The notes beneath the pieces were generated by a model. That model searched no databases and had not been told where the DNA came from. It was given only the letters and a program-made list of their open reading frames with translations. A stretch of DNA of 9,894 nt from Smithella sp. ME-1 (GTDB lineage Bacteria; Desulfobacterota; Syntrophia; Syntrophales; Smithellaceae). This document shows positions 1 through 9,894 of this stretch, one piece after another. Positions within the stretch are counted from its first letter, which is position 1. Each line of letters starts with the position of its first letter. A program made the translations under genes and the position numbers. The stretch covers positions 1-9,894 of the forward strand of contig AWGX01000771.1 of NCBI GenBank assembly GCA_000495415.1. Reading direction: 5' to 3'.

Positions 1-152
1 CATTCCCGCGAAGGCGGGAATCCATGATTTTACATCTCCCTTTTTTAAAGGGAGATGAAGAGGGATAATTCGACTAACAAGCTTCAGCTCACTACGTTTC
101 TGAAGCTTGAGTCTCATTAAATCTCCCCTAACCCCTCTTTAATGAAGAGGGG
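1..152. repeat. Cluster of four palindromic intergenic repeats
   Basis: Four perfect inverted repeats lie head to tail before the first gene. They are ATTCCCGC/GCGGGAAT at 2-21 (8-bp stem, 4-nt loop), CATCTCCCTTT/AAAGGGAGATG at 33-57 (11-bp stem, 3-nt loop), CAAGCTTCAG/CTGAAGCTTG at 78-109 (10-bp stem, 12-nt loop) and CCCCTCTT/AAGAGGGG at 132-152 (8-bp stem, 5-nt loop). The second and fourth share the CTCCC/GAGGG theme. The first resembles a dispersed palindrome common in deltaproteobacterial intergenic DNA; I recall that from general knowledge and did not search. No open reading frame is visible here. The arrangement suggests a mosaic of small non-autonomous repeats rather than one terminator. 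Confidence 0.8.
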
Positions 153-153
153 G
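132..153 (+). promoter_or_regulatory. Ribosome binding site inside a hairpin arm
   Basis: The purine-rich stretch at 145-153 (AAGAGGGGG) is the only good Shine-Dalgarno sequence for the gene starting at 158, with 4 nt between them. It is also the right arm of the 8-bp palindrome 132-152. In mRNA the site could therefore be masked by its own stem. That a repeat supplies the ribosome binding site is seen in the sequence; any regulatory effect is inference. Confidence 0.5.
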
Positions 154-157
154 AAAT

Positions 158-1159
158 GTGGAAATTATGCAAAAGGAAATTCAAAAATTTTTAACGGAAC
201 ATCTGGGCAAGGCTGATTTTAAGCTTGAGCCAATCAAGAAGGGCGGTTCCGACCGCCAATTTTTCAGGGTCACTTTGCCGCATGGAGATCGTTTTATTTT
301 TATGCATTATGGCGATGAAGTAGCGGAAAACGCCCATTGGGGCGGCATCAACAAATTCATGGCATCGCTGAATATGAACGTTCCGCGGATTATCACACAG
401 GATATCTCAAAGCATTTTATTTTGATTGAGGATCTGGGCGACGTTGATTTGTGGTCGCTCCGGTTTGAGCCCTGGGAAGAAAGACGTGATTTCTATTTTC
501 AGGTACTGACTCAAATTTATCGTCTGCATTCCTTTGATTTGAAATCGGCTCCCGCTGATGTGCAGTTATCCGAAAGTTACGGCCCACGACTCTATAAATG
601 GGAGCACGACTATTTTCTGGAAAATCTTGTCTGGGAAGTCTGCAAAATAAAACTTTCATCATCAGATGCCGCGAAGTTAAACAAAGAACTGGATGCGCTT
701 TCCGCCCGTCTGCAAAAAATAGAACCGTCCCTAATTCATAGAGACTTTCAGTCGCAGAATATCATGATTAAAAACGGCAGGCCGGTTATGATTGATTTTC
801 AGGGAATGCGTTTGGGATGCCTGTTTTACGATCTCGGTTCGCTGATCTGCGATCCTTATGTTACTTTTGAAGATGAAGAAAGAAACGAGCTGATAAATTA
901 TTATTATGAACTCATGAATCCATCATACAGCCGCGATGAATTTGTCCATAACTTTTGGATGGGTTCGGTACAGCGTCTTTTACAGGCACTGGGCGCTTAT
1001 GGTTTCCTGGGACTAAAAAAACATAAAACAGATTTTCTCGGACATATCGGCAACGGCCTGGAAAATTTATTAATCGCAGTAGATAATGTCGGTGCACTCG
1101 AAATGCTGAGTGAGTTGGCGACCGAATGCGAAACAATCCTCGCCGGGAAAAATTACTGA
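158..1159 (+). CDS. APH-fold sugar kinase (AmgK-like phosphotransferase)
   Basis: A 333-residue protein of the aminoglycoside phosphotransferase/choline kinase fold, closest in style to AmgK, which phosphorylates N-acetylmuramate or N-acetylglucosamine at the anomeric position during peptidoglycan recycling. Visible motifs are GGSDRQFFRV (29-38, nucleotide-binding loop), LIEDLGD (89-95, hinge), the catalytic loop HRDFQSQN (194-201) and the metal-binding IDFQG (212-216), followed by YDLGSLICDPY (224-234), typical of this subgroup. The length fits AmgK (about 340). The GTG at 158 is chosen because GAGGGGG lies just upstream; ATG at 167 is the alternative. The usual partner, a MurU-type nucleotidyltransferase, is not in the window, so the exact substrate is unproven. 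It is probably cytosolic. The gene is GC-richer than the DNA downstream and looks like resident chromosome. Confidence 0.85.
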   Translation: MEIMQKEIQKFLTEHLGKADFKLEPIKKGGSDRQFFRVTLPHGDRFIFMHYGDEVAENAHWGGINKFMASLNMNVPRIITQDISKHFILIEDLGDVDLWSLRFEPWEERRDFYFQVLTQIYRLHSFDLKSAPADVQLSESYGPRLYKWEHDYFLENLVWEVCKIKLSSSDAAKLNKELDALSARLQKIEPSLIHRDFQSQNIMIKNGRPVMIDFQGMRLGCLFYDLGSLICDPYVTFEDEERNELINYYYELMNPSYSRDEFVHNFWMGSVQRLLQALGAYGFLGLKKHKTDFLGHIGNGLENLLIAVDNVGALEMLSELATECETILAGKNY

Positions 1160-1198
1160 GAAATTATGAAGATATAAAATATAGCAAAAACTATATGA

Positions 1199-1402
1199 AT
1201 AATTAAGTGTTATATTACCAGAACTCCAGAGGCTGAACACAATGAAGCATTATCCTTTGACGAGAATCATCGTCTAATGGGAAAAGGTTGGGGCTATGTA
1301 GATGCCCATCTGATTACATCCACCGTATTGACTGGTGTACTGATCTGGACTCTGGATAAAAAACTGGCACAGTTTACCGATACCATGCATATAAAATATT
1401 AG
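1199..1402 (+). pseudogene. VapC-type PIN-domain toxin, C-terminal remnant
   Basis: An open frame without a proper start encodes only the last ~67 residues of a VapC ribonuclease. The hallmark is MGKGWGYVDAHLITS (ATG codon at 1277), where the D of VDAH is a conserved PIN metal ligand. It is followed by IWTLDKKL, matching the LWTRDRRL region of VapC, and then the end of the protein. Full VapC proteins have about 125-140 residues with acidic residues near the N terminus. Here the N-terminal half is missing, because an in-frame TGA at 1196 and only 36 bp separate it from the preceding gene. No VapB antitoxin is present. A dead toxin-antitoxin relic is by far the best reading; a functional 41-residue peptide from 1277 is unlikely. 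Confidence 0.8.
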
Positions 1403-1674
1403 AGAATGTATTTTGAACTTTGAGGAAGAATTGCAAAAGAAACTTTAAAGAATTATTTGTTGTAGACAAAGAATAAATAGGGCGCTGACTCTAATTTTGC
1501 ATAAAACAGATCTTTTTGGTCATTGCTGTTTTTTCTTTTGACATTAATTAATAATATATTCCCACACTCCACTTCCCCGGGACGACTTTGAATTTCTCCA
1601 TTTTTTAACAATTAACTGTTGAGTGCCAGGACATTTTGGACACTCCACAATTAGCATGTAACAAATATCGTGAG
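1403..1674. other. Gene-free AT-rich spacer with an imperfect hairpin
   Basis: About 270 bases without a credible gene on either strand. The only structure seen is an imperfect inverted repeat at 1617-1649 (TGT-T-GAGTG against CACTC-C-ACA, 8 paired bases with one mismatch). It lies just beyond the 3' end of the minus-strand FkbM gene. It could act as a weak terminator for that gene, but no run of U follows in that direction. It may instead be the worn end of a lost insertion sequence. Confidence 0.4.
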
Positions 1675-2457
1675 TTACAAAGAGCGTTTACCTGACCGGT
1701 TGATGAATAAATAATCTGACCATGGATCCGGCTCCCCCGTAATAGACTTGGGGCGTGAAGAGCTGATCTGTTCAAAGCAGAAATCCTTTAAATAAGCGAA
1801 TACTTCTTTATAACAATCTTGCCCGATATATATCGGTTGATCCTCGAGTTCGGTGATAATATAATTCACTTTTTTGAGCAGGTTTCCTAAGCCTCTAAAT
1901 GCATGCAAGGATGCCCCTTGCAGGTCCATGCAGATCAAATCAATTGAAGTAATGCGATTTTCTTTGCAGAAGTCATCCAAACGGACCGCATCAACCTTGA
2001 TTTCGCTTTGAACGAGTTTTTCATGGTAGTCATCGCACTGACGGAAACAGGAGGATGCACCTATGTTCTTGTGTTTGAGGTTCGGATTCGACATTTCATA
2101 AGATTCAACAACTGGATAGAATTTGATTTTCTCATTTTTATCCCAGACAGCTTTCTCAATCAGAGATACGTTAGAAGATATTGCGGCGTTCCTTCTGCAT
2201 AATAGGATACTGTCCGGATTGCATTCAAAGGCAAAAACTTTGGCGTTATAAAATCTGGAGAGACAAAGTGCGTCTAGAAGATCCCTGCTGCCTAATTCAA
2301 AAATTATCTTAACATCTTCCTTATGGATATGTTTTGTAAAATTGTTATTCAAATAAGTGCTTTTTATATTGGGGTAGCAGCCTATTTGGTAAAGACACCG
2401 ACGAATTCTGCATTGATTTTCTTCAGTAAGGGATTTTTTTATGAATGATCTGATCAT
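1675..2457 (-). CDS. FkbM-family SAM-dependent methyltransferase
   Basis: A 260-residue class I methyltransferase of the FkbM family, which O-methylates sugars or polyketide hydroxyls and is common in surface-glycan loci. The SAM-binding motif I is IIFELGSRDL (51-60). The acidic end of the next strand is FAFECNP (75-81). VRLDDFCKEN (158-167) and IDLICMDLQGAS (172-183) match the conserved FkbM D-F-x-K and K-x-D-x-x-G-x-E-like blocks, but MDLQGAS replaces the usual DIEGAE/DVEGHE, so one acidic residue is Gln. Length is normal. The ATG at 2457 is the only sensible start, although it lacks a clear Shine-Dalgarno site. The gene diverges from the second FkbM gene at 2672. Its acceptor is not identifiable. 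A cytosolic enzyme is expected. Confidence 0.85.
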   Translation of the reverse strand: MIRSFIKKSLTEENQCRIRRCLYQIGCYPNIKSTYLNNNFTKHIHKEDVKIIFELGSRDLLDALCLSRFYNAKVFAFECNPDSILLCRRNAAISSNVSLIEKAVWDKNEKIKFYPVVESYEMSNPNLKHKNIGASSCFRQCDDYHEKLVQSEIKVDAVRLDDFCKENRITSIDLICMDLQGASLHAFRGLGNLLKKVNYIITELEDQPIYIGQDCYKEVFAYLKDFCFEQISSSRPKSITGEPDPWSDYLFINRSGKRSL

Positions 2458-2511
2458 TTAGTTATTTATAAAAACTTCTTTTTAGCAGGTTTGAGTATAT
2501 GCAGCGGGGAA

Positions 2512-2655
2512 TTATGTGTCAAGATGATTATGAGCACTGATTATTTCTTTGTATTGCCTTGGCACTTTAAAGACAGTATATTAGAAAGAGAAAAAGAATT
2601 TTTGGCAAAAGGCGGTAAAATAATTTTTCCGTTGCCAGAAATTAAAATAATGTAG
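2512..2655 (+). pseudogene. Sugar C-methyltransferase, C-terminal remnant
   Basis: Between the two divergent FkbM genes lies the tail of another gene. The frame ending with TAG at 2653 encodes STDYFFVLPWHFKD, then REKEFLAKGGKIIFPLPE. This matches the C-terminal domain (Methyltransf_14 type) of NDP-sugar C-methyltransferases, in which a D-Y-x-x-V-L-P-W-H-F block precedes a GGK-x-I-F-P-L-P end. Only about the last 43 residues of a ~400-residue enzyme remain. The sequence upstream of the block (before about 2512) no longer matches the family, although the frame stays open to 2461. It sits immediately before the FkbM gene at 2672 and was probably its operon partner before truncation. Translation from ATG 2524 is possible but has no obvious function. 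Confidence 0.8.
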
Positions 2656-2671
2656 AGGAAAAGAAAAGATA

Positions 2672-3478
2672 GTGCAAATAAAAGAATCATTTTTATTAAT
2701 AAAAATTATAAGATTTTTAATAAGACCTTGGGGCTATGATATAGTCCCCACAAAGAATCCCGGCTTAAAAGTTGAAAAAAAAATAATAGAGTATTTTAAT
2801 TTAGCACTTATAAAACGTGAACATCCAGCCTATCAAACATCCTACTCACAGGTAGCAGAAGATATAATAGTATCTGATTTGTTTTATAGAAAAAACAACA
2901 GCCTGCCTTCTTATTTGGAACTGGGGGTAGAATCTCCTATCTATATTAATAACACCTATAAATTTTACAAAAGAGGATCCAATGGAGTTTTAGTCGAAGC
3001 TAATCCGAAACATATAGAACAAATAAAAAAAAATCGTCCAAACGACAAATTAATTTCTTCAGCCGTAGGCGTAAATGAAGCAGAGTCTGTTAATTTATAT
3101 TATTTACAAAACGGATGCGAATCAATTTCTAAAGAAGAAGCCGAGTTCAGAGAAAAAGCAGGACATAAAATAAATGAAGTTACACAAATTCCTTGTTCAA
3201 CTATTAATAAAATAATTGAACAGAATTTTCAAGATGGCCATCCGGATTTTTTGTCTATTGACATAGAAGGTATGGATCTTGATGTTTTAAAGACATTAGA
3301 TTTTGAGAAATACCCCATCCCGGTAATTTGTGCAGAAACTTTGATTTTTGGAGGACTTCGCACTCTCCAGAGAAACAATGAAATAATAAACTTTTTAACA
3401 ACAAAAGGTTATTTTGTGTATGCTGATACTTATATAAATACTATTTTTGTTAATAAAGATTGGTATTTAAAAAAATAA
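2672..3478 (+). CDS. FkbM-family SAM-dependent methyltransferase
   Basis: A 268-residue FkbM-family methyltransferase. The signature SYSQVAEDIIVSDLF (57-71) corresponds to the SQ-x-x-ED-x-I-L-x block at the start of FkbM domains. Motif I is YLELGVESPIYINNTY (81-96), followed by GVLVEANP (105-112). FLSIDIEGMDLDVL (193-206) is the conserved D-x-E-G block and is intact, unlike in the minus-strand paralogue. PVICAET (217-223) closes the core. The N-terminal ~50 residues are a basic, hydrophobic lead region with no clear domain. The start is GTG 2672; the upstream purines (AGAGG at 2654-2658) are poorly spaced. It is strongly AT-rich, as is its surrounding DNA, suggesting transfer from elsewhere. 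It is followed after 15 nt by the broken glycosyltransferase-like gene, so it was once part of an operon for surface-glycan modification. The acceptor is unknown. Confidence 0.88.
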   Translation: MQIKESFLLIKIIRFLIRPWGYDIVPTKNPGLKVEKKIIEYFNLALIKREHPAYQTSYSQVAEDIIVSDLFYRKNNSLPSYLELGVESPIYINNTYKFYKRGSNGVLVEANPKHIEQIKKNRPNDKLISSAVGVNEAESVNLYYLQNGCESISKEEAEFREKAGHKINEVTQIPCSTINKIIEQNFQDGHPDFLSIDIEGMDLDVLKTLDFEKYPIPVICAETLIFGGLRTLQRNNEIINFLTTKGYFVYADTYINTIFVNKDWYLKK

Positions 3479-3493
3479 AAAACAGGAGAAACT

Positions 3494-3764
3494 GTGAAAG
3501 CTTTATTCATTGATAGCTCAAAAAAACAATGAAGCATTCACGAATCAGGGGAAATGATTTTTCAATGTTTAAATAATCAAAATAATATCATTTTGATTAT
3601 ATTGAAATAGACGAAAAAATTCAACCATATCAACACAGCATGATTTATATTTTTTCAATTATAATCAAGTTACTATGTCATGGCTAAGTGTAAAAAATCT
3701 TAAAAAACATTAGGTCATGTAATTATAACTGTTTTAGAAGTTTTGCCGGACAATCCCTTTTACC
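3494..3764 (+). pseudogene. Glycosyltransferase-like gene broken by several frameshifts
   Basis: A good ribosome binding site (CAGGAG, 3483-3488) precedes GTG 3494, but the frame stops after 12 codons at a TGA following a run of seven A. Piecing frames together gives MKALFIDSSKK, then NEAFTNQG/NDFSMFK, then FDYIEIDEKIQPYQH, then DLYFFNYNQVTMSWLSVKNL and finally VIITVLEVLPDNPF. These fragments are collinear and read like the N-terminal part of one glycan-locus protein, resembling proteins annotated as glycosyltransferases beside FkbM genes. At least four frameshifts or stops separate them, and everything after about codon 90 is missing. It is only 15 nt behind the FkbM stop, so it was the next gene of that operon. 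The family assignment is from memory and moderate; the pseudogene call is firm. Confidence 0.65.
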
Positions 3765-3825
3765 CCCGAATTCAGGCAGACCTCTCCGGCGTGTCTTAAA
3801 TAATTCTTGAAAAAATCACAAAACG

Positions 3826-4057
3826 TTATAACTGCGTGTGCCCTTCAGGGTAGATGTAATCATCCCAGGAATATTCCGGGTCGCCGTAGTTTATGTAAGA
3901 TTCTCTCCTGCATCCGGCCTTCCAGTATCAGGCTCAGCGCTTCTCTTGCTACTATTCTGAAGTCCAAATCATCGCTATCCGTTGATAAATTCATATCCTT
4001 GGTTGCTTTGTAAGCTTGTGGCAAACTCATAGTGTAGTTCTGGAACATGGGGTGCAT
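3826..4057 (-). pseudogene. Unknown gene, probably frameshifted
   Basis: On the minus strand a frame opens with ATG 4057 or, better, ATG 4048, which has AGAGG 9 nt upstream. It encodes an acidic, helical-looking segment with LDFRIVAREALSLILEGRM and stops at 3860. In another frame, the stretch from about 3930 to the TAA at 3826 reads SYINYGDPEYSWDDYIYPEG, which looks like genuine protein and continues naturally after EGRMQE. A frameshift near 3905-3915 would join the two into a ~75-residue protein. I do not recognise the family. Alternatives are that only the first frame (62-65 residues) is real, or that both are chance. The acidic/aromatic tail favours a decayed gene. The plus-strand frame opposite it has no recognisable features. 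Confidence 0.4.
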
Positions 4058-4072
4058 CCTCTTTTAAATTCC

Positions 4073-4195
4073 CTAAAAATAAATCATTTTAGGCTGGTAC
4101 TCCTTTCCTTTCTCTTTCTCAGCTAACTGACACAAAATATAATACATCATCACGCACAGGTTTGCGTTGACATAAAAGTTAATATGGCCTATGGT
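4073..4195 (-). other. Small minus-strand open frame, unrecognised
   Basis: A frame open from 4195 to the TAG at 4073 encodes about 40 residues, including FYVNANLCVMMYYILCQLAEK followed by a charged, Lys/Glu-rich end. ATG codons at 4150 and 4147 and a GTG at 4153 are possible starts; none has a clear ribosome binding site. The composition (hydrophobic helix then charged helix) looks like real coding sequence. It lies just upstream of, and on the same strand as, the broken gene at 3826-4057. It may be the tail of a lost gene, possibly a transposase. No function is claimed. Confidence 0.25.
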
Positions 4196-4215
4196 TCATC
4201 TACATAAATACAAAC

Positions 4216-4223
4216 AAGGAAGG
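4216..4223 (+). promoter_or_regulatory. Ribosome binding site selecting the TTG start of rnk
   Basis: AAGGAAGG lies 6 nt before TTG 4230. The longer in-frame ATG at 4191 has no purine stretch in front of it, and its 13 extra residues would be encoded through this ribosome binding site. The site therefore decides for the TTG start. Confidence 0.75.
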
Positions 4224-4229
4224 TGTGTT

Positions 4230-4643
4230 TTGGATAGAACGGTTTACATAACCAGTTTCGACATGGACAGGCTTCAGAGCATCATCGATAATCACCGCTC
4301 TGCATCGCCGAAGATTAAAGAGCAGATCGAAAGGCTGGAAATCGAGTTGGACAAGGCGGTTGTCGTGGAGCCCAAAGATATTCCTGCGGATGTGGTCACG
4401 ATGAACACGAAACTGCGCCTGTTGGATGAGACATCGGGAGAGGAAAAAATCATTTCGCTTGTTTTCCCCTCCGACGCCGATTTCGATAAAAACCGGATAT
4501 CCGTGCTGGCCCCAGCCGGTACAGCCTTGCTGGGTTACCGTGTGGGCGATATTGTGGAATGGAACGTGCCGTCGGGAACCAAAAGCTTCCGTATCATAGA
4601 AACCCTTTATCAGCCTGAAGCCGCCGGGCATTACGACGTATAA
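4230..4643 (+). CDS. rnk: Rnk-type regulator, GreA/GreB family
   Basis: A 137-residue protein matching Rnk (nucleoside diphosphate kinase regulator; E. coli Rnk has 136 residues). Rnk binds RNA polymerase through a Gre-type C-terminal domain and has a short N-terminal coiled coil. Here residues 1-45 (MDRTVYITSFDMDRLQSII, then alternating charged heptads) form the coiled-coil part. Residues 53-130 form the GreA/GreB C-terminal domain, with ADVVTMNTKLRLLD (53-66), FPSDAD (79-84), ISVLAPAGTALLGYRVGD (90-107) and WNVPSGTK (111-118). The TTG start with AAGGAAGG upstream gives exactly the family length; ATG 4191 would add 13 unsupported residues. The gene is clearly GC-richer than the decayed DNA on its left. 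It appears monocistronic and cytosolic. Confidence 0.88.
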   Translation: MDRTVYITSFDMDRLQSIIDNHRSASPKIKEQIERLEIELDKAVVVEPKDIPADVVTMNTKLRLLDETSGEEKIISLVFPSDADFDKNRISVLAPAGTALLGYRVGDIVEWNVPSGTKSFRIIETLYQPEAAGHYDV

Positions 4644-4700
4644 CGACGTAAAACGCTGACGATGTAAAGGGGACGCTGGACGATGTAAAAGGGACGCTGT
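4643..4700. repeat. Short tandem repeat of about 21 bp
   Basis: Immediately after the rnk stop, the unit ACGATGTAAAGGGGACGCTGG (4659-4679) is followed directly by a near-identical copy at 4680-4700, differing at two positions. A shorter relative (ACGACGTAAAACGCTG) precedes them at 4643-4658. The GTAAAGGGGACGCTG motif typically flanks REP-associated transposase genes, which fits the transposase scrap that follows. Confidence 0.6.
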
Positions 4701-4707
4701 TAACTTA

Positions 4708-4829
4708 TTAGCTTTCTATCAGCCTGTAGCCGTTTGATTCGGCAAGCTGCTCGCCCCGAACAACCGATTTGCTGATGGCCGGAAGCGACAATCCAAGACG
4801 TCGCGCCAGGCTGGCCATCGTAACACCTA
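4708..4829 (-). pseudogene. REP-associated (Y1) transposase, C-terminal remnant
   Basis: Read leftwards from the IS630 boundary to the TAA at 4708, about 40 codons encode LGVTMASLARRLGLSLPA, then SKSVVRGEQLAESNGYRL. This is the helix-turn-helix found at the C terminus of many REP-associated tyrosine transposases (RAYT/TnpA_REP) of Proteobacteria. The catalytic Y1 domain (about 250 residues) is absent. The fragment ends at the left edge of the IS630 element (4827-4830). Past the right edge the same frame stays open for some codons but no longer resembles the family. Either the gene was already truncated before the insertion, or a deletion next to the IS removed the rest. The adjacent tandem repeats support the identity. 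Confidence 0.65.
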
Positions 4830-4841
4830 GTGTAGTGCGTC
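4830..4841 (+). repeat. IS630 left terminal inverted repeat
   Basis: GTGTAGTGCGTC is the exact reverse complement of 5955-5966. It is preceded by the TA target duplication within a CTAG tetranucleotide. Confidence 0.92.
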
Positions 4842-4850
4842 ATAAATAAC

Positions 4851-4880
4851 TTGACATATAATTAAGAAATCATGTATGCT
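4851..4880 (+). promoter_or_regulatory. Candidate sigma-70 promoter of the IS630 transposase
   Basis: TTGACA at 4851-4856 is a perfect -35 box. With an 18-nt spacer, TATGCT at 4875-4880 is a fair -10 box. Transcription would start around 4886-4888, on top of the ATG at 4887, predicting a leaderless or nearly leaderless transcript. The ATG at 4872 would then lie upstream of the transcript start. Confidence 0.5.
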
Positions 4881-4886
4881 TCTTTC

Positions 4887-5969
4887 ATGAGCCGAACAAC
4901 AACACCGATTATTTTGAGTCTCCAAGAACAATCAACATTGGACGCCTGGGCACGGGGAAGAAGTTACCCAATGCGCCTCGTCCAGCGCGCCCAAATTATC
5001 AAAATGGCAGCAAATGGTAATCAGAGTCAGGATATCGCTCGCGATCTGGGAATCTCCCGGCCAACCGTGCAGCTATGGAGACAGCGCTTTCTGGCCTTAC
5101 GTATGGGCGGTCTGGAGAAGGATGCTCCTCGTCCCGGTCGAATCCCTAAGATACCGGAGGAAAAAATTCAAGCAGTTGTTGAAGCAACTCTCCATTCGAC
5201 GCCCTGCAATGCCACGCACTGGAGCACCCGTAACATGGCCAAGGCTCAAGGTCTTAGCGAAGCCACTATACGCCGGATATGGAAGCAATACAATTTAAAG
5301 CCGCATTTGATCAAAACCTTCAAGCTAAGCCGTGACAAGCATTTTATAGAAAAGCTTCACGACGTTGTCGGACTGTATCTAAATCCTCCGGATAAATCCG
5401 TTGTGTTCTGTGTGGACGAGAAGAGTCAAATTCAAGCCTTGGACCGCACTCAGCCGGGTTTGCCGATGAAGCCGGGTCGTTGTGGAACCATGACACACGA
5501 TTATAAGCGCAATGGCACGACGACTTTATTTGCGGCACTCAGCATGCTTGACGGCAGAGTAATTGGTGATTGCATGCCGCGTCACCGTCATCAAGAATTT
5601 ATCCGTTTCCTCAAAAAGATAGACGACGAAACGCCTGAGAGCCGCGACCTTCATTTGATTGTGGACAATTACGGTACTCACAAGCATCCTCGTGTAAAAT
5701 CATGGCTTAAACGCCATCCACGATTTCATTTGCACTTTACTCCGACTTCAAGTTCATGGTTGAACCTGGTCGAACGTTGGTTCAGTGAAATTACTGTAAA
5801 ACGCATCCGTCGTGGCACCTTCGGGAATGTAACCATCTTGATCAAAGCAATAAAAGATTATATTGATGCACATAATCAGAATCCGCATATTTTTGTATGG
5901 ACTGCGCCCGTAGAGCGTATTTTGGCTAAAATTAACAAATGTAAAGAAGCGTTGGACGCACTACACTAG
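4887..5969 (+). CDS. IS630-family DDE transposase
   Basis: A 360-residue transposase that cuts and joins the element ends into TA targets. The N-terminal half has a helix-turn-helix region (SQDIARDLGISRPTVQLWRQ, 47-66), then a second winged-helix stretch (LSEATIRRIWKQYNL, 123-137). The DDE catalytic core shows FCVDEKSQIQALDRT (174-188, first Asp at 177), LIVDNYGTHKHP (257-268, second Asp at 260) and SSSWLNLVERWFS (288-300, Glu at 296). All three acidic residues and full length are present. I chose ATG 4887 because family members start close to this sequence and the likely promoter -10 box overlaps the alternative ATG 4872. The TAG stop at 5967-5969 is formed by the TA target duplication plus the flanking G. 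Confidence 0.95.
   Translation: MSRTTTPIILSLQEQSTLDAWARGRSYPMRLVQRAQIIKMAANGNQSQDIARDLGISRPTVQLWRQRFLALRMGGLEKDAPRPGRIPKIPEEKIQAVVEATLHSTPCNATHWSTRNMAKAQGLSEATIRRIWKQYNLKPHLIKTFKLSRDKHFIEKLHDVVGLYLNPPDKSVVFCVDEKSQIQALDRTQPGLPMKPGRCGTMTHDYKRNGTTTLFAALSMLDGRVIGDCMPRHRHQEFIRFLKKIDDETPESRDLHLIVDNYGTHKHPRVKSWLKRHPRFHLHFTPTSSSWLNLVERWFSEITVKRIRRGTFGNVTILIKAIKDYIDAHNQNPHIFVWTAPVERILAKINKCKEALDALH
5955..5966 (-). repeat. IS630 right terminal inverted repeat, inside the transposase gene
   Basis: GACGCACTACAC mirrors the left end. It is also coding: it carries the last transposase codons (D-A-L-H), and the stop codon begins in the TA duplication just outside. Confidence 0.92.
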
Positions 5970-6010
5970 TATCGTGAAGCTGTGATTTGGTACAGGAATT
6001 ATCAATAATA

Positions 6011-6577
6011 ATGGAACCTTTTGATTTTCAACAAATTCATGACGAATTTCGAGAGCGGATTTTTCACTATCTTTTCGGTATGGCCGGCAAAAACGACGCA
6101 GAGGATTTGACACAGGTAGTTTTCGAAAAGATAAACCGTAATCTGGAAAATTTCAGAGGAGAATCAAGCATTGCAACTTGGATTTACCGCATTGCCACCA
6201 ATGTTGCACTGGATAACGGACGTTTGGCCTCGTCACGTAAAACAATAATTTCATTGGACACAATTGAGGACATCTGTGATTGTAATATTTTAGGCAATGA
6301 TAAGCATCTTGACGCGGAAAGCAAGCTTATGAGGCGTGAAATGAATTCCTGCATCCACCGCATCGTTAAGCGCATGCCTGAAACCGAACGTGTTGTGCTG
6401 CTTCTCAGTGAATTTGAAGGACTGAAGAACCGTGAGATTGCAGAGATACTGGATATTACCATTGATACCGTAAAAATCAGACTTCACCGCGCCCGGACAA
6501 GATTAAAAAAAGACATTAAGACGGAGTGCACCCTTTATCATGACGAAAGAAACGAATTAGTTTGCACGCCTAAGTAA
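6011..6577 (+). CDS. ECF-type RNA polymerase sigma factor with Cys-bearing tail
   Basis: A 188-residue sigma-70 family protein with regions 2 and 4 only, as in ECF sigma factors. Region 2 covers about residues 12-72 (DAEDLTQVVFEKINRNLENF at 29-48, SIATWIYRIATNVALD at 53-68). Region 4 covers about 113-168 (MPETERVVLLLSEFEGLKN at 122-140, then the helix-turn-helix EIAEILDITIDTVKIRLHRAR at 142-162). A C-terminal extension holds TECTLYHDERNELVC (171-185), with two cysteines that could sense redox state or metal. ATG 6011 is preferred; an in-frame TTG at 5987 would add eight residues. Neither has a strong ribosome binding site. Only 41 bp separate it from the IS630 end, so its original promoter may be displaced. 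No anti-sigma gene follows directly. Confidence 0.85.
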   Translation: MEPFDFQQIHDEFRERIFHYLFGMAGKNDAEDLTQVVFEKINRNLENFRGESSIATWIYRIATNVALDNGRLASSRKTIISLDTIEDICDCNILGNDKHLDAESKLMRREMNSCIHRIVKRMPETERVVLLLSEFEGLKNREIAEILDITIDTVKIRLHRARTRLKKDIKTECTLYHDERNELVCTPK

Positions 6578-6583
6578 CGTAAC

Positions 6584-6724
6584 GATGCTATAAAATATCT
6601 ATCACTATCAATTATTAATTTCTTTAACCAACAATCCACCACATTCAAAAAATAAAAAATGTATCCTTTTTGATATCTCTTACGTCTATAGCGCAAAAAT
6701 TTTTCCCCAATGTTTTATAGCATC
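6584..6724. repeat. Long-spaced 12-bp perfect inverted repeat
   Basis: GATGCTATAAAA at 6584-6595 is the exact reverse complement of TTTTATAGCATC at 6713-6724, 117 bp apart, in the spacer after the sigma-factor gene. No gene lies between the arms. It could be a small non-autonomous element, paired binding sites for a regulator, or the base of a long RNA stem. Confidence 0.55.
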
Positions 6725-6761
6725 AGATAAGATTTAATATTTTTAGATTATGAACATGATC

Positions 6762-6784
6762 ATCATCAGCTAAAAACTGATGAT
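6762..6784 (+). promoter_or_regulatory. Hairpin upstream of the 4Fe-4S protein gene
   Basis: ATCATCAG (6762-6769) pairs perfectly with CTGATGAT (6777-6784) around a 7-nt A-rich loop. A run of A rather than T follows (6787-6792), so on the plus strand it is not a typical intrinsic terminator. It sits 36 bp before the GTG at 6821, within the likely leader or promoter region, and could be an operator or a leader stem. The rest of spacer 6578-6820 holds no gene. Confidence 0.45.
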
Positions 6785-6820
6785 TCAAAAAAATACTATG
6801 ATATTCGAAAGGTTGAATCT

Positions 6821-7930
6821 GTGAAAAGGTATATACTTATCTTAGGCGTATTTTTATTAGTCTTAGGCATTGCTTGTGCGACGGAAGAGATGGTGGGATG
6901 CATTCTGATGCCAATTTCAGGCGTCCTATATTTTTTCGGTACTACTTCCAAAAAAGTATTTTCTTTTTTTAATATGGAAGTGGGCAAATATCTCATAATG
7001 GCTGGTACATTTATAATTATTACATCACTAATTTTTCTCATCCCAGAGAAGAATAAAGAACTGCAACACAGTGCTAAAAGTTTCAAGTTAAATAAAGTAG
7101 GCCTATGGAAGCAAAGAAGAATGTTATTTCAGATTTTTATACTAGGATTAATAACTTTTCATATTATATTGGTTCACTTCAAAGGACTGAATATTCCCTC
7201 TATATGCCCACGGTCGTCAACAGACATCGCGACAAATTATGGCCTTTTTGGACTTTCGGCTGTATTTTGGCTTATTATGTACCTCCTCGTATTTATTTGG
7301 GGACGCGTTTTATGTTCATGGTTTTGTGTTTATTCATTTGTTCAAGAACGGTCGAACGATATTTTATCCGCATTTAATAAAAAAGTAAGCCATACAGTTA
7401 AAAAAAATTTTATTATTTATATTGTTACATCTATTTTTTGGGGTAGCGTAATTTACAATGTTACGAAATATTATTTGACAACAAACTCCCTTGAATTCAA
7501 TATTGTCAATGGGTACAAGGTTGCAAATTTATGGGTATTTTATGGAGGCATGATTACAATGCTTCCACTGACCATGTTTTTAAGCTATTATTTCGGCAAT
7601 AGATTTTTCTGTAAATATGTCTGCCCTGTTGGTGGACTAATGAGTATATATTCCCGTTTCAGTTTCTTAAAAATAAAAATAGATCATGCCAAATGCAAGA
7701 ACTGTAAAAAATGTTCACGTTCATGTCAAATGGGAGTAGATATAGACCAATACATAAAAGATGAAAAAATAGCAGTGACTGATAATAATTGCATTGCTTG
7801 TGGTGATTGTATTGATGCCTGTAAATTTTCTGCCTTGAAATATGGATTAGTTATTAAACAACCCTCATATAACGAACAACCGATATCCAATAACAAAGTA
7901 ATCCCAGTCGAGGAAAAGCAATTATCGTAA
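6821..7930 (+). CDS. NapH/NosR/CcoG-like membrane 4Fe-4S ferredoxin
   Basis: A 369-residue polytopic membrane protein with a cytoplasmic-type double cubane domain, the architecture of NapH, NosR C-terminal and CcoG-like electron-transfer proteins. Hydrophobic segments lie near 4-20, 27-40, 57-74, 101-120, 143-160, 197-213 and 240-258. Conserved Cys motifs are CSWFC (165-169) and CKYVCP (264-268, then P269). Two [4Fe-4S] motifs follow: C292-x2-C295-x2-C298-x3-C302 and C324-x2-C327-x2-C330-x3-C334. The first membrane motif lacks the proline normal in C-x3-C-P, as it reads CV, and the first cluster ends CQ instead of CP. GTG 6821 is well placed behind GAAAGG (6807-6812). It probably passes electrons between the quinone pool or a soluble donor and an unknown partner; the flavin and MerB-like genes downstream are candidates. 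The DNA is AT-rich. Confidence 0.85.
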   Translation: MKRYILILGVFLLVLGIACATEEMVGCILMPISGVLYFFGTTSKKVFSFFNMEVGKYLIMAGTFIIITSLIFLIPEKNKELQHSAKSFKLNKVGLWKQRRMLFQIFILGLITFHIILVHFKGLNIPSICPRSSTDIATNYGLFGLSAVFWLIMYLLVFIWGRVLCSWFCVYSFVQERSNDILSAFNKKVSHTVKKNFIIYIVTSIFWGSVIYNVTKYYLTTNSLEFNIVNGYKVANLWVFYGGMITMLPLTMFLSYYFGNRFFCKYVCPVGGLMSIYSRFSFLKIKIDHAKCKNCKKCSRSCQMGVDIDQYIKDEKIAVTDNNCIACGDCIDACKFSALKYGLVIKQPSYNEQPISNNKVIPVEEKQLS

Positions 7931-7974
7931 TTTTTTACTTATAGATACAGAATAAATTGAGGTGATATTATTAT

Positions 7975-8403
7975 ATGAAACCTACAGAGCTTCCACCAGA
8001 AGAGCGCATGGCTTTGCTATCGAATTTACGCTACGGTAGATTAGGCATGTCCTTGAATAACAAACCTTATGTTGTGCCTATGTCTTACGTTTACCATAAT
8101 GATAAAATATATCTCCACTCAAGAAAAGAAGGAGAAAAACTCAAAATAGCAAGAAGCAATCCGAGAGTTTGTTTCCAAGTGGATAATTTGCGTAATAACC
8201 GTTGGGCTAGCGTCATAGCAAGAGGAATAATTAAATTATCAACTGATATCGAAATCAAAAAAAAGATGTTCAACGCTTATGTTATTAAGAATATGGGTGG
8301 CCATAAAAAAAGACAATTTATGCCAGAAGATATAGAAAAAATGGATATGGTAGTGCTGGAGATGGAAATCGAAGAGATGACAGGGAGGCGGGGTATCTGG
8401 TAA
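7975..8403 (+). CDS. PNPOx-like / NimA-type split-barrel flavin protein
   Basis: A 142-residue protein of the pyridoxamine 5'-phosphate oxidase-like split beta-barrel superfamily, close in size and pattern to NimA-type (nitroimidazole resistance) and general flavin-binding members. Typical features are the N-terminal helix ending LLSNLRYGRLGMS (14-26), the strand pair PYVVPMSYVY (31-40), IYLHSRKEGEKLKIARSNPRVCFQVD (45-70, the FMN-phosphate-binding region) and WASVIARGIIKL (77-88). Such proteins bind FMN, F420 or heme; the ligand cannot be told from sequence alone. A strong ribosome binding site (GAGGTGAT, 7959-7966) precedes ATG 7975. It lies 44 nt behind the 4Fe-4S gene and 18 nt before the MerB-like gene, so co-transcription is likely. 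Confidence 0.85.
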   Translation: MKPTELPPEERMALLSNLRYGRLGMSLNNKPYVVPMSYVYHNDKIYLHSRKEGEKLKIARSNPRVCFQVDNLRNNRWASVIARGIIKLSTDIEIKKKMFNAYVIKNMGGHKKRQFMPEDIEKMDMVVLEMEIEEMTGRRGIW

Positions 8404-8421
8404 ATTAATATAACCGGATCG

Positions 8422-8706
8422 ATGAAGAAGACAGAGATGATTTATACACAGAAGGACAGGACTTATCATTTTATTATGGAATATTTCGTAAAGTGGGGAC
8501 GTGGACCACATTTTACGGAAATTGCCAAAGCCTTCTCTGTACGACCGGATGAGGGTAAAAAACTTCTGCATGAATTAATGGACACAAAACTTCCTATATG
8601 GTTATACCCCAACACGGATATAATTGCTTCATTTGCCCCATTCCACAATCTGCCCACTCAATATCAAATTACTATCGATGGAAATCAAAAATGGTATGCT
8701 CAATGA
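8422..8706 (+). CDS. MerB-like (alkylmercury lyase family) protein, interrupted at the catalytic Cys codon
   Basis: Read to the TGA, this gives 94 residues. They match the N-terminal winged-helix-like part of MerB-like proteins (HFIMEYFVKWGRGPHFTEIA, 16-35, then EGKKLLHELMDTKLP, 44-58) and the start of the core (IIASFAPFHNLPTQY, 67-81; DGNQKWYAQ, 86-94). MerB cleaves carbon-mercury bonds using Cys96, Asp99 and Cys159. In relatives the sequence after this YA-x block is Cys, and here it is TGA (codon 95). Homology resumes in frame with GFESLAVCWVFPG. Codon 95 may therefore be selenocysteine rather than stop. About two thirds of the way along, the gene is cut by a rearrangement, so the second Cys region is absent. 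The start is ATG 8422, 18 nt behind the flavin gene, with a weak CGGA site. Function on mercury itself is not shown. Confidence 0.65.
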   Translation: MKKTEMIYTQKDRTYHFIMEYFVKWGRGPHFTEIAKAFSVRPDEGKKLLHELMDTKLPIWLYPNTDIIASFAPFHNLPTQYQITIDGNQKWYAQ

Positions 8707-9801
8707 GGGTTTGAATCCCTGGCGGTCTGCTGGGTCTTTCCGGGAACGAGGATTGCCGTTCAGACCGGACTCATTGAAAACAATAGTCATATAAAACGCG
8801 CCATTGGTTTTATTGACCATCAAACAGGGAACCTCTTTTAAAATGTCATAAGCTATATGCGAAAGTTTCTCATAGTGTTTTTTGCGTTCATCCAGGTAAT
8901 CCTGATATTTCGGATGCGTCATTATTCTGGGAATCGCCAGTTGCGGAAGGGTTGTTGAACAAACCTCCGACATTTTCTGATGCAGAATTGTGTTAATGAA
9001 GCGGTCGAAAATAGGATCCTTACCGGCGTTGTATACTTCCATCCAGCCGCAACGCGAACCGGGCCACGGAAGCTCCTTGGAAATTCCTTTCATGCTGATT
9101 GCCGGAACATCATCGACAATATCGGAAAGCGGGACGGTTTTTTTACCATTAAAAACAATATTAATGTAAGTTTCGTCAAAGACAACAAAAAGATCGTTTT
9201 CTTTCGCAATCCTCACAACTTGCCTCAATGTTTCTTCAGGATAAACAAAACCGGTAGGGTTATCGGGATTAATAACCAGAATTCCAACAATCGCTTTGTG
9301 GCTTCTTACTTTCTGTTCCAGTTCCCGCATATCCGGAGACCAGCCGTTATAGGGATTCAAACGATAGGTATTAGGTGGAAACGAAGCGTGCAGAACTTCC
9401 GCCATGAAGTGTGTGGAATAGGTAGGCTCCGGCATAATCATGCGGGCGTCAACCTGAATGGAGCTGTAAGCGCGCGCGATGGCATCACCCAGGCCGTTGA
9501 AGAAGATGATATCTTCCGGTGTAATTTGCACCTTACCTCGACTGTTAAGACGATCGGCAAGAAATTTTCTTGTGGAGTCTACTCCTTTTGTCGGCGAGTA
9601 TGCAAAAGATGCGTCATCCTTTATTATTTCGGTAAGAACTTCTTTCATCCAATCGGGAATTTTTTCCCCCTTCTGCACCGGATCACCGATGTTTTCCCAA
9701 ATTATATTAATGCCTAAATCTCTAAGTTTGTTAGCAATAAGAACTATATTACGGATTTCATAAGTCAGCCCGCTACCGCCGCGGGAAATTTCAAAACGCA
9801 T
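8629..9801 (-). CDS. PLP-dependent fold-type I aminotransferase, 3' end lost
   Basis: Residues 1 to about 347 are a normal aspartate/aromatic-type aminotransferase. IGDPVQKGEKIPDWM (38-52) is the N-terminal gate, SPTKGVDSTRKFLADRL (69-85) precedes the cofactor phosphate loop GLGDAIARAYSS (103-114), NPDNPTG (178-184) binds the ring region, FDETYINIVF (208-217) holds the Asp for the pyridine nitrogen, and SMKGISKELPWPGSRCGW (236-253) holds the Schiff-base Lys242. Family members run to about 430 residues. Here the match ends after GAFYMTIVFNESGL (334-347), and the last ~43 residues are the reverse complement of the MerB-like gene. The C-terminal small domain with its substrate-carboxylate Arg is missing, so activity is doubtful. 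ATG 9801 has AGAGG 11 nt upstream. It could be annotated as a pseudogene. Confidence 0.8.
   Translation of the reverse strand: MRFEISRGGSGLTYEIRNIVLIANKLRDLGINIIWENIGDPVQKGEKIPDWMKEVLTEIIKDDASFAYSPTKGVDSTRKFLADRLNSRGKVQITPEDIIFFNGLGDAIARAYSSIQVDARMIMPEPTYSTHFMAEVLHASFPPNTYRLNPYNGWSPDMRELEQKVRSHKAIVGILVINPDNPTGFVYPEETLRQVVRIAKENDLFVVFDETYINIVFNGKKTVPLSDIVDDVPAISMKGISKELPWPGSRCGWMEVYNAGKDPIFDRFINTILHQKMSEVCSTTLPQLAIPRIMTHPKYQDYLDERKKHYEKLSHIAYDILKEVPCLMVNKTNGAFYMTIVFNESGLNGNPRSRKDPADRQGFKPSLSIPFLISIDSNLILSGQIVEWGK
8704..8841 (+). other. In-frame TGA and read-through extension of the MerB-like gene
   Basis: Decoding TGA 8704-8706 as an amino acid keeps the frame open for 44 more codons to TAA 8839. 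The first ~15 (GFESLAVCWVFPGTR) continue the family match, with E at the position of MerB Asp99. The remaining ~29 codons are antisense to the aminotransferase gene and look like random sequence. The UGA thus lies within genuine homology, while the true C terminus has been lost. Confidence 0.55.
8718..8734 (+). promoter_or_regulatory. Candidate bacterial SECIS element
   Basis: A 6-bp stem CCUGGC/GCUGGG (four Watson-Crick and two G-U pairs) carries the 5-nt loop GGUCU at 8724-8728. The loop begins at the 18th nucleotide after the UGA. The E. coli fdhF SECIS also shows GGUCU, closed by the same two GC pairs, beginning about 19 nt after its UGA. This meets the described bacterial SECIS pattern: a small apical loop, a G among its first two bases, and a distance of roughly 16-37 nt. 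It lies upstream of the breakpoint, so it belongs to the original gene. Confidence 0.55.
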
Positions 9802-9844
9802 AAGTATTCTAACCTCTTACATATTGTTGGCTGTTTCATAATAC

Positions 9845-9860
9845 ATATTTGTTCAAATAT
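9845..9860. repeat. Small palindrome upstream of the aminotransferase
   Basis: ATATTTG-TT-CAAATAT is a perfect 7-bp inverted repeat 44 bp upstream of the minus-strand ATG at 9801. Its position suits an operator near the promoter, but AT-rich palindromes of this size occur by chance. Nothing else is seen in 9802-9894. Confidence 0.3.
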
Positions 9861-9894
9861 CCAGAAAATTTTAGTGAAACTCCAATTCCGAAAG

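Follow-up and report, generated by a model that had tools for sequence, protein, structure and literature searches.

In-frame UGA codons at both catalytic positions point to a selenoprotein family with the alkylmercury lyase fold

The 9,894-nucleotide stretch of DNA analyzed here (contig AWGX01000771.1 of Smithella sp. ME-1, positions 1 to 9,894; hereafter the window) contains a gene related to the alkylmercury lyase MerB whose reading frame meets a UGA at 8704-8706, which raises the question of whether this codon is a nonsense mutation or encodes selenocysteine. Comparison with the relatives of the gene argues for the latter: UGA 8704 would be a selenocysteine codon of a MerB-fold family, and this explanation as a whole, including a second selenocysteine site and a proposed lyase activity, is very probable. 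Taken alone, the selenocysteine reading of the codon, which rests on sequence comparison, is close to certain, and the carbon-mercury lyase activity proposed for the family by analogy with MerB is an evenly balanced prospect. The family is predicted to be a branch of selenoproteins within the alkylmercury lyase fold, in which both catalytic cysteines are usually replaced by selenocysteine. The features that carry this reading in the window are:

8422..8745, plus strand: 5' part only (about 108 codons) of the predicted MerB-like selenoprotein gene, delimited by blastn similarity to its closest relatives, which extends to about 8744
8704..8706, plus strand: UGA in frame at the position of MerB Cys96, interpreted from comparison of relatives as a selenocysteine codon of the family
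8718..8734, plus strand: hairpin resembling a selenocysteine insertion sequence (SECIS), with a 6-bp stem of 8718-8723 paired to 8729-8734 and the loop GGUCU at 8724-8728

The frame opens with an ATG at 8422, runs for 94 codons to the TGA and continues in the same frame with GFESLAVCWVFPG, exactly as described in the original prediction, which had equated the TGA, as codon 95, with the codon of the catalytic Cys96 of MerB; alignment with relatives confirms this correspondence. Because most relatives begin about 90 codons upstream of the UGA, the ATG at 8437 may be an alternative start. The span first given for the gene, 8422..8841, holds as regards start and frame but reaches too far at its end, since similarity to the family ceases near 8745. 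The anticipated 6-bp stem with a GGUCU loop about 18 nt past the UGA is indeed present, and consists of CCUGGC (8718-8723), the loop GGUCU, which begins at base 18 past the UGA, and GCUGGG (8729-8734). It is the only 6-bp hairpin with this loop on either strand of the window, even with G-U pairs allowed, and the chance expectation for such a hairpin is 0.01 per strand (300 composition-keeping shuffles). The SECIS of E. coli fdhF has the same GGUCU loop at a similar distance from its UGA, with a different stem sequence and host protein.

A scan of genome contigs recovered 158 relatives, of which the best 80 were kept as loci; as annotated, their hosts are mostly uncultured Deltaproteobacteria, the remainder being a few Nitrospiraceae, Nitrospinae, Chloroflexi, Poribacteria and other Proteobacteria. 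The closest to the window copy are L011, which is 88% identical to it in protein sequence over 98 columns, and, by the tree, L007. At the position of the window UGA (site 1) the codon is TGA in 75/80 loci and TGC in five (L008, L012, L014, L016 and L019), and in none is it TAA or TAG, while the protein sequence is conserved on both sides of it. The expectation that MerB-like relatives retain cysteine here is therefore borne out by the five TGC loci only, most others having UGA. A second in-frame TGA, overlooked in the original prediction, lies 65 or 66 codons past site 1, at the position of MerB Cys159 (site 2), in 79/80 loci; in L079 the nearest TGA is 5 codons late; 74/80 loci have UGA at both sites. 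The terminal stops of the same genes are mixed (TAA 32, TAG 25, TGA 22; n = 79), and uniform TGA at both sites would be vanishingly rare if drawn like these stops, in a calculation that ignores kinship. Among 96 homologous proteins, 79 end one codon before site 1, 12 have Cys, 4 have Trp and one is otherwise different; the collection includes one protein with Cys at both sites (P0084). A sample of 297 genomes, drawn evenly within one phylum, yielded 20 matches in 16 genomes, each with two internal TGA codons, and six weaker matches (80-131 bits) free of internal stops, one of which spans profile positions 1-81 only; since 10 of the 16 carrier genomes also host some of the 80 loci, the two sets are not independent. 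An earlier count by a narrow motif caught only 26/81 records and was replaced by these broader counts. Three genomes (G091, G085 and G148) have two or three double-UGA copies each.

Cysteine at site 1 appears in three places inside the selenocysteine group of the tree when counted by eye (P0084, L008 and a clade of four), and with SaoL, another MerB relative, as outgroup the tool counts four changes at this site. Given these several places, selenocysteine and cysteine have probably been exchanged repeatedly at site 1. The tree, the hairpin-2 alignment and the codon test described below omit L039, which is at a contig end, and L079, which is rearranged in the vicinity of site 2, the hairpin-1 alignment omits the five TGC loci, and the full-length alignments omit L016 and L020 (a frameshift near the 3' end, and a third in-frame TGA). 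This third TGA of L020, near 5163 and 13 codons past site 1 where relatives have Gly, might be a sequencing error or a mutation.

The hairpins provide a second line of evidence. In hairpin 1 (76 sequences, i.e. 75 loci and the window) 99.3% of the cells are paired, versus 13-59% with slid partners, and the stem is closed by a G-C pair in 60 distinct rows and by a C-G pair in 12, which include the window. Likewise, in hairpin 2 (78 sequences) 97.6% are paired versus 43-63% with slid partners, and four pairs have changed on both sides. Relative synonymous codon entropy falls to 0-0.41 at codons +4 to +8 of site 1 and 0-0.24 at +5 to +9 of site 2, over the hairpins, the ratio being 0.67-1.05 almost everywhere else between -12 and +21. 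When the codons were replaced by synonyms, the stability of the real hairpin was equalled in a median of 4.5% of trials at site 1 and 1.5% at site 2, with 41/78 and 51/78 loci, respectively, under 5%. A consensus fold computed without a given structure recovered hairpin 2 and did not recover hairpin 1, two of whose pairs are G-U and which was evaluated against its named structure. Conservation of the hairpin, on which the original prediction partly turned, was found as covariation among the relatives; as for the TGC copies, the GGUC loop is lost in 4/5 and kept in L008. The family thus shows two of the features expected of bacterial selenoproteins, namely a conserved in-frame UGA with Cys homologues and a downstream SECIS hairpin with compensatory changes, and the proposal of a selenoprotein form of the alkylmercury lyase family is supported.

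A MerB fold is predicted for the family. The Pfam MerB profile (PF03243) is passed by 8/8 of the longer relatives examined (36-70.7 bits against a gathering score of 27) and, at 21 bits, not by the truncated window protein; none of the eight passes the NCBIfam MerB models (11-43 bits versus 193 and 200). Cys96 and Cys159 are described, in passages of PMC9948709 and PMC8261052, as conserved or required in MerB, and a passage of PMC4525700 describes how, with the help of Asp99, the Hg-C bond is cleaved in a proton-assisted manner and mercury is released from Cys159 and Cys96. Alignment with MerB (PDB 3f0o) and MerB2 (PDB 5c17) places both catalytic cysteines at the UGA codons of the 74 double-UGA loci, and Cys117 of MerB is aligned with the first Cys of a CLDCG motif of the relatives.

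The machinery for selenocysteine insertion that such a reading calls for was traced in the genomes of the relatives, with SelB and the mercury-methylation protein HgcA examined in 78 host genomes (those of all loci but L014 and L061, the latter being from the same assembly as L050) and tRNA-Sec in 39. SelB exceeds the cut-off in 68/78 hosts (33/39 and 35/39 in the two halves) and tRNA-Sec in 35/39, at a cut-off which is not fully specific as 5/14 control genomes pass it too; 38 of the first 39 hosts have one or both, and both are present in the hosts of L011 and L007 (G310 and G307).

Several observations weigh against the proposed reading. The host of L018 (G314) has neither SelB nor tRNA-Sec over the cut-off, and SelB is common in the phylum sample (263/297 genomes), so that its presence in the hosts is necessary but weak support; it does not discriminate the carriers of the family (15/16) from the other genomes (248/281; Fisher p = 1.0). 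The window hairpin is ordinary by energy (63-nt fold, z = -0.14, with a different minimum-energy structure), being the minimum-energy fold only within a 22-nt stretch, and no Rfam family reaches its gathering score in the window; as folding energy alone is unremarkable, the case for this hairpin rests on the relatives. Codon usage is also skewed, more weakly, outside the hairpins (ratios of 0.41-0.60, found at codon -2 relative to site 1 and at codons -1, +1 and +2 relative to site 2). As regards function, Asp99 of MerB is replaced by Glu in most relatives (MerB2 has Ser there), and MerA is over the cut-off in only 4/39 hosts, a count for which only the curated cut-off is telling, since a MerA-like match at E 1e-60 occurs in 37/39 hosts and in 13/14 controls. 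Finally, gene neighborhoods are not conserved and no mer operon was seen around the loci: the commonest neighbor cluster occurs in 13/81 records, and in a Pfam scan of the 135 immediate neighbors (of 681 neighboring open reading frames) a Cys-rich CCG domain leads with 6, among the 25 commonest of 178 families.

The window copy itself presents a further problem, as it is truncated just past the hairpin, a fact which the original prediction had also missed. Two features define the break:

8745..8754: junction at which both convergent genes lose family similarity, bounded by the end of the blastn match at about 8744 and the end of the aminotransferase profile match at 8752-8754
8752..9801, minus strand: aminotransferase (PRK06855 family, NF005334) lacking its last approximately 83 profile positions, by profile match

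Residues 1-350 of the aminotransferase match positions 1-351 of the 434 in the NF005334 profile (579.6 bits), residue 350 corresponding to bases 8752-8754, and the frame of the MerB-like gene beyond the junction, up to 8841, is the antisense of the aminotransferase gene. Site 1 and hairpin 1 survive in the window copy, and site 2, the protein's second half and the counterpart of Cys117 in the CLDCG motif are missing; cut past about codon 108, this copy cannot work as an enzyme as it stands, and the truncation is an event separate from, and downstream of, the UGA. One account of this break, to which we assign somewhat less than an even chance, is that the window sequence is an assembly chimera and that the broken gene exists in no cell. 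The loss of similarity in both convergent genes within about 10 bases fits this account, as does the lack of a close copy of the aminotransferase in the fetched loci, where the only match, in L058, is 26% identical; a simple deletion between convergent genes would look alike. A chimera would concern the window copy alone and is compatible with a selenocysteine codon at 8704.

The remaining alternatives bear on the codon or the gene as such. That the gene is simply SaoL, the described MerB-like organometallic lyase of the selenocysteine-assisted organometallic (SAO) system with a single selenocysteine, is very improbable. SaoL (NF040728) is listed in a passage of the review PMC13188914 as a prokaryotic selenoprotein with the motif CU and one selenocysteine, and the earlier review PMC9312934 has, in a passage, an entry for a MerB-like selenoprotein of the alkylmercury lyase type that carries the same example accession and no motif; thus, a selenocysteine-containing MerB relative was already known, which the original prediction had missed. 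SaoL is the sole NCBIfam match of the window protein and the best for 7/8 of the longer relatives scanned, and it too has a UGA at the Cys159 position, in both SaoL loci read (L081 and L082). These matches amount to 18.8 bits for the window protein and 27-48 bits for all eight relatives against a cut-off of 140, and in L081 and L082, the only two SaoL genes read and both over this cut-off, site 1 is Cys and site 2 carries the motif C-UGA, whereas the window family has UGA at both sites, the residue preceding site 2 being mostly Thr, Ala or Ser. As the SaoL genes read have Cys at site 1 and one selenocysteine, the window family would be a distinct double-selenocysteine variant beside SaoL. Two distant MerB relatives from genomes with no match to the family profile at E 1e-20 (G043 and G059) extend the picture: L084 has Cys at site 1 and UGA at site 2, and L086 (minus strand) has UGA at both; its site 2 is accompanied by a GGUC hairpin, and no GGUC was seen in the 60 bases past its site 1 UGA. 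These combinations suggest that selenocysteine occurs in several MerB branches. No account of a MerB with selenocysteine at both sites was found among the titles and passages searched, though one may be in print in the SaoL papers by Haft and co-workers; the main texts of PMC2398784, PMC5029168 and PMC12013277, as far as covered, make no mention of MerB or mercury.

Slightly less probable still is that the gene is a decaying MerB-like pseudogene and its TGA a nonsense mutation, a view to which the truncation of the window copy lends some color, but which is hard to reconcile with TGA in 75/80 loci and never TAA or TAG, with the conserved flanking protein and with a covarying hairpin. That the hosts use a variant genetic code in which UGA specifies tryptophan can be dismissed almost entirely: the 4/96 collection proteins with Trp at the site, which we read as UGA decoded by another table, speak for it, but 22/79 genes terminate with TGA, conserved Trp elsewhere is TGG (e.g. 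78/78 four codons before site 1), the five UGA-free loci have Cys, and the presence of the hairpins would be unexplained.

With UGA 8704 taken as a selenocysteine codon, the UGA codons, the hairpins, the predicted fold and the residue correspondence, all read from the sequences, allow us to infer selenium insertion, a reaction and a substrate. SelB with selenocysteyl-tRNA would read UGA 8704 with the aid of the GGUCU hairpin just downstream, and in intact relatives the second UGA, with its own hairpin, would direct insertion of another selenocysteine about 65 codons on. The metal-binding pair Cys96/Cys159 of MerB would thereby become two selenolates, with Glu taking the place of Asp99. The selenolate of selenocysteine binds mercury more tightly than a thiolate. 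By analogy with MerB, an organomercury compound or other organometal would most likely be bound between the two selenolates and its carbon-metal bond cleaved by protonation, with methylmercury or another organometal as the substrate; tighter metal binding would help capture and cleavage and hinder product release. The cysteine pair has been treated as the hallmark of MerB, and here both members are predicted to be selenocysteine. As gene callers stop at the first UGA, ahead of the catalytic residue, and merB surveys build on Cys96/Cys159, these genes are cut short and are likely missed by the surveys.

HgcA is over the cut-off in 42/78 hosts (21/39 and 21/39). In the 297-genome sample it is found at E 1e-60, a threshold which also counts contig-edge pieces, in 12/16 carriers versus 74/281 other genomes (p = 0.0001), and at the curated cut-off in 10/16 versus 73/281 (p = 0.003), both values being uncorrected for kinship and genome size. 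It is conceivable, though on balance doubtful, that a widespread double-selenolate organometal lyase serves as a methylmercury demethylase or self-protection enzyme of mercury-methylating anaerobes, hidden from merB surveys. If the family does demethylate methylmercury, genomic estimates of methylmercury degraders would be too low.

Upstream of the MerB-like gene, and in the same direction, lie genes for a NapH-like polyferredoxin (6821-7930) and a pyridoxamine-oxidase-like protein (7975-8403), with an operon-like appearance, the gaps along 6821-8422 being 44 and 18 bases; neither had a tblastn match in the fetched loci. DNA similar to 8404-9894 was not found in plasmids, and no relatives were confirmed in viral contigs. 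The window open reading frame at 4872-5969 may encode an IS630-type transposase. An extracytoplasmic function (ECF) sigma factor gene is present at 5987-6577, and in L011 a gene for a 71% identical ECF sigma factor lies convergent with the MerB-like gene, at a distance of about 285 bases on its downstream side.
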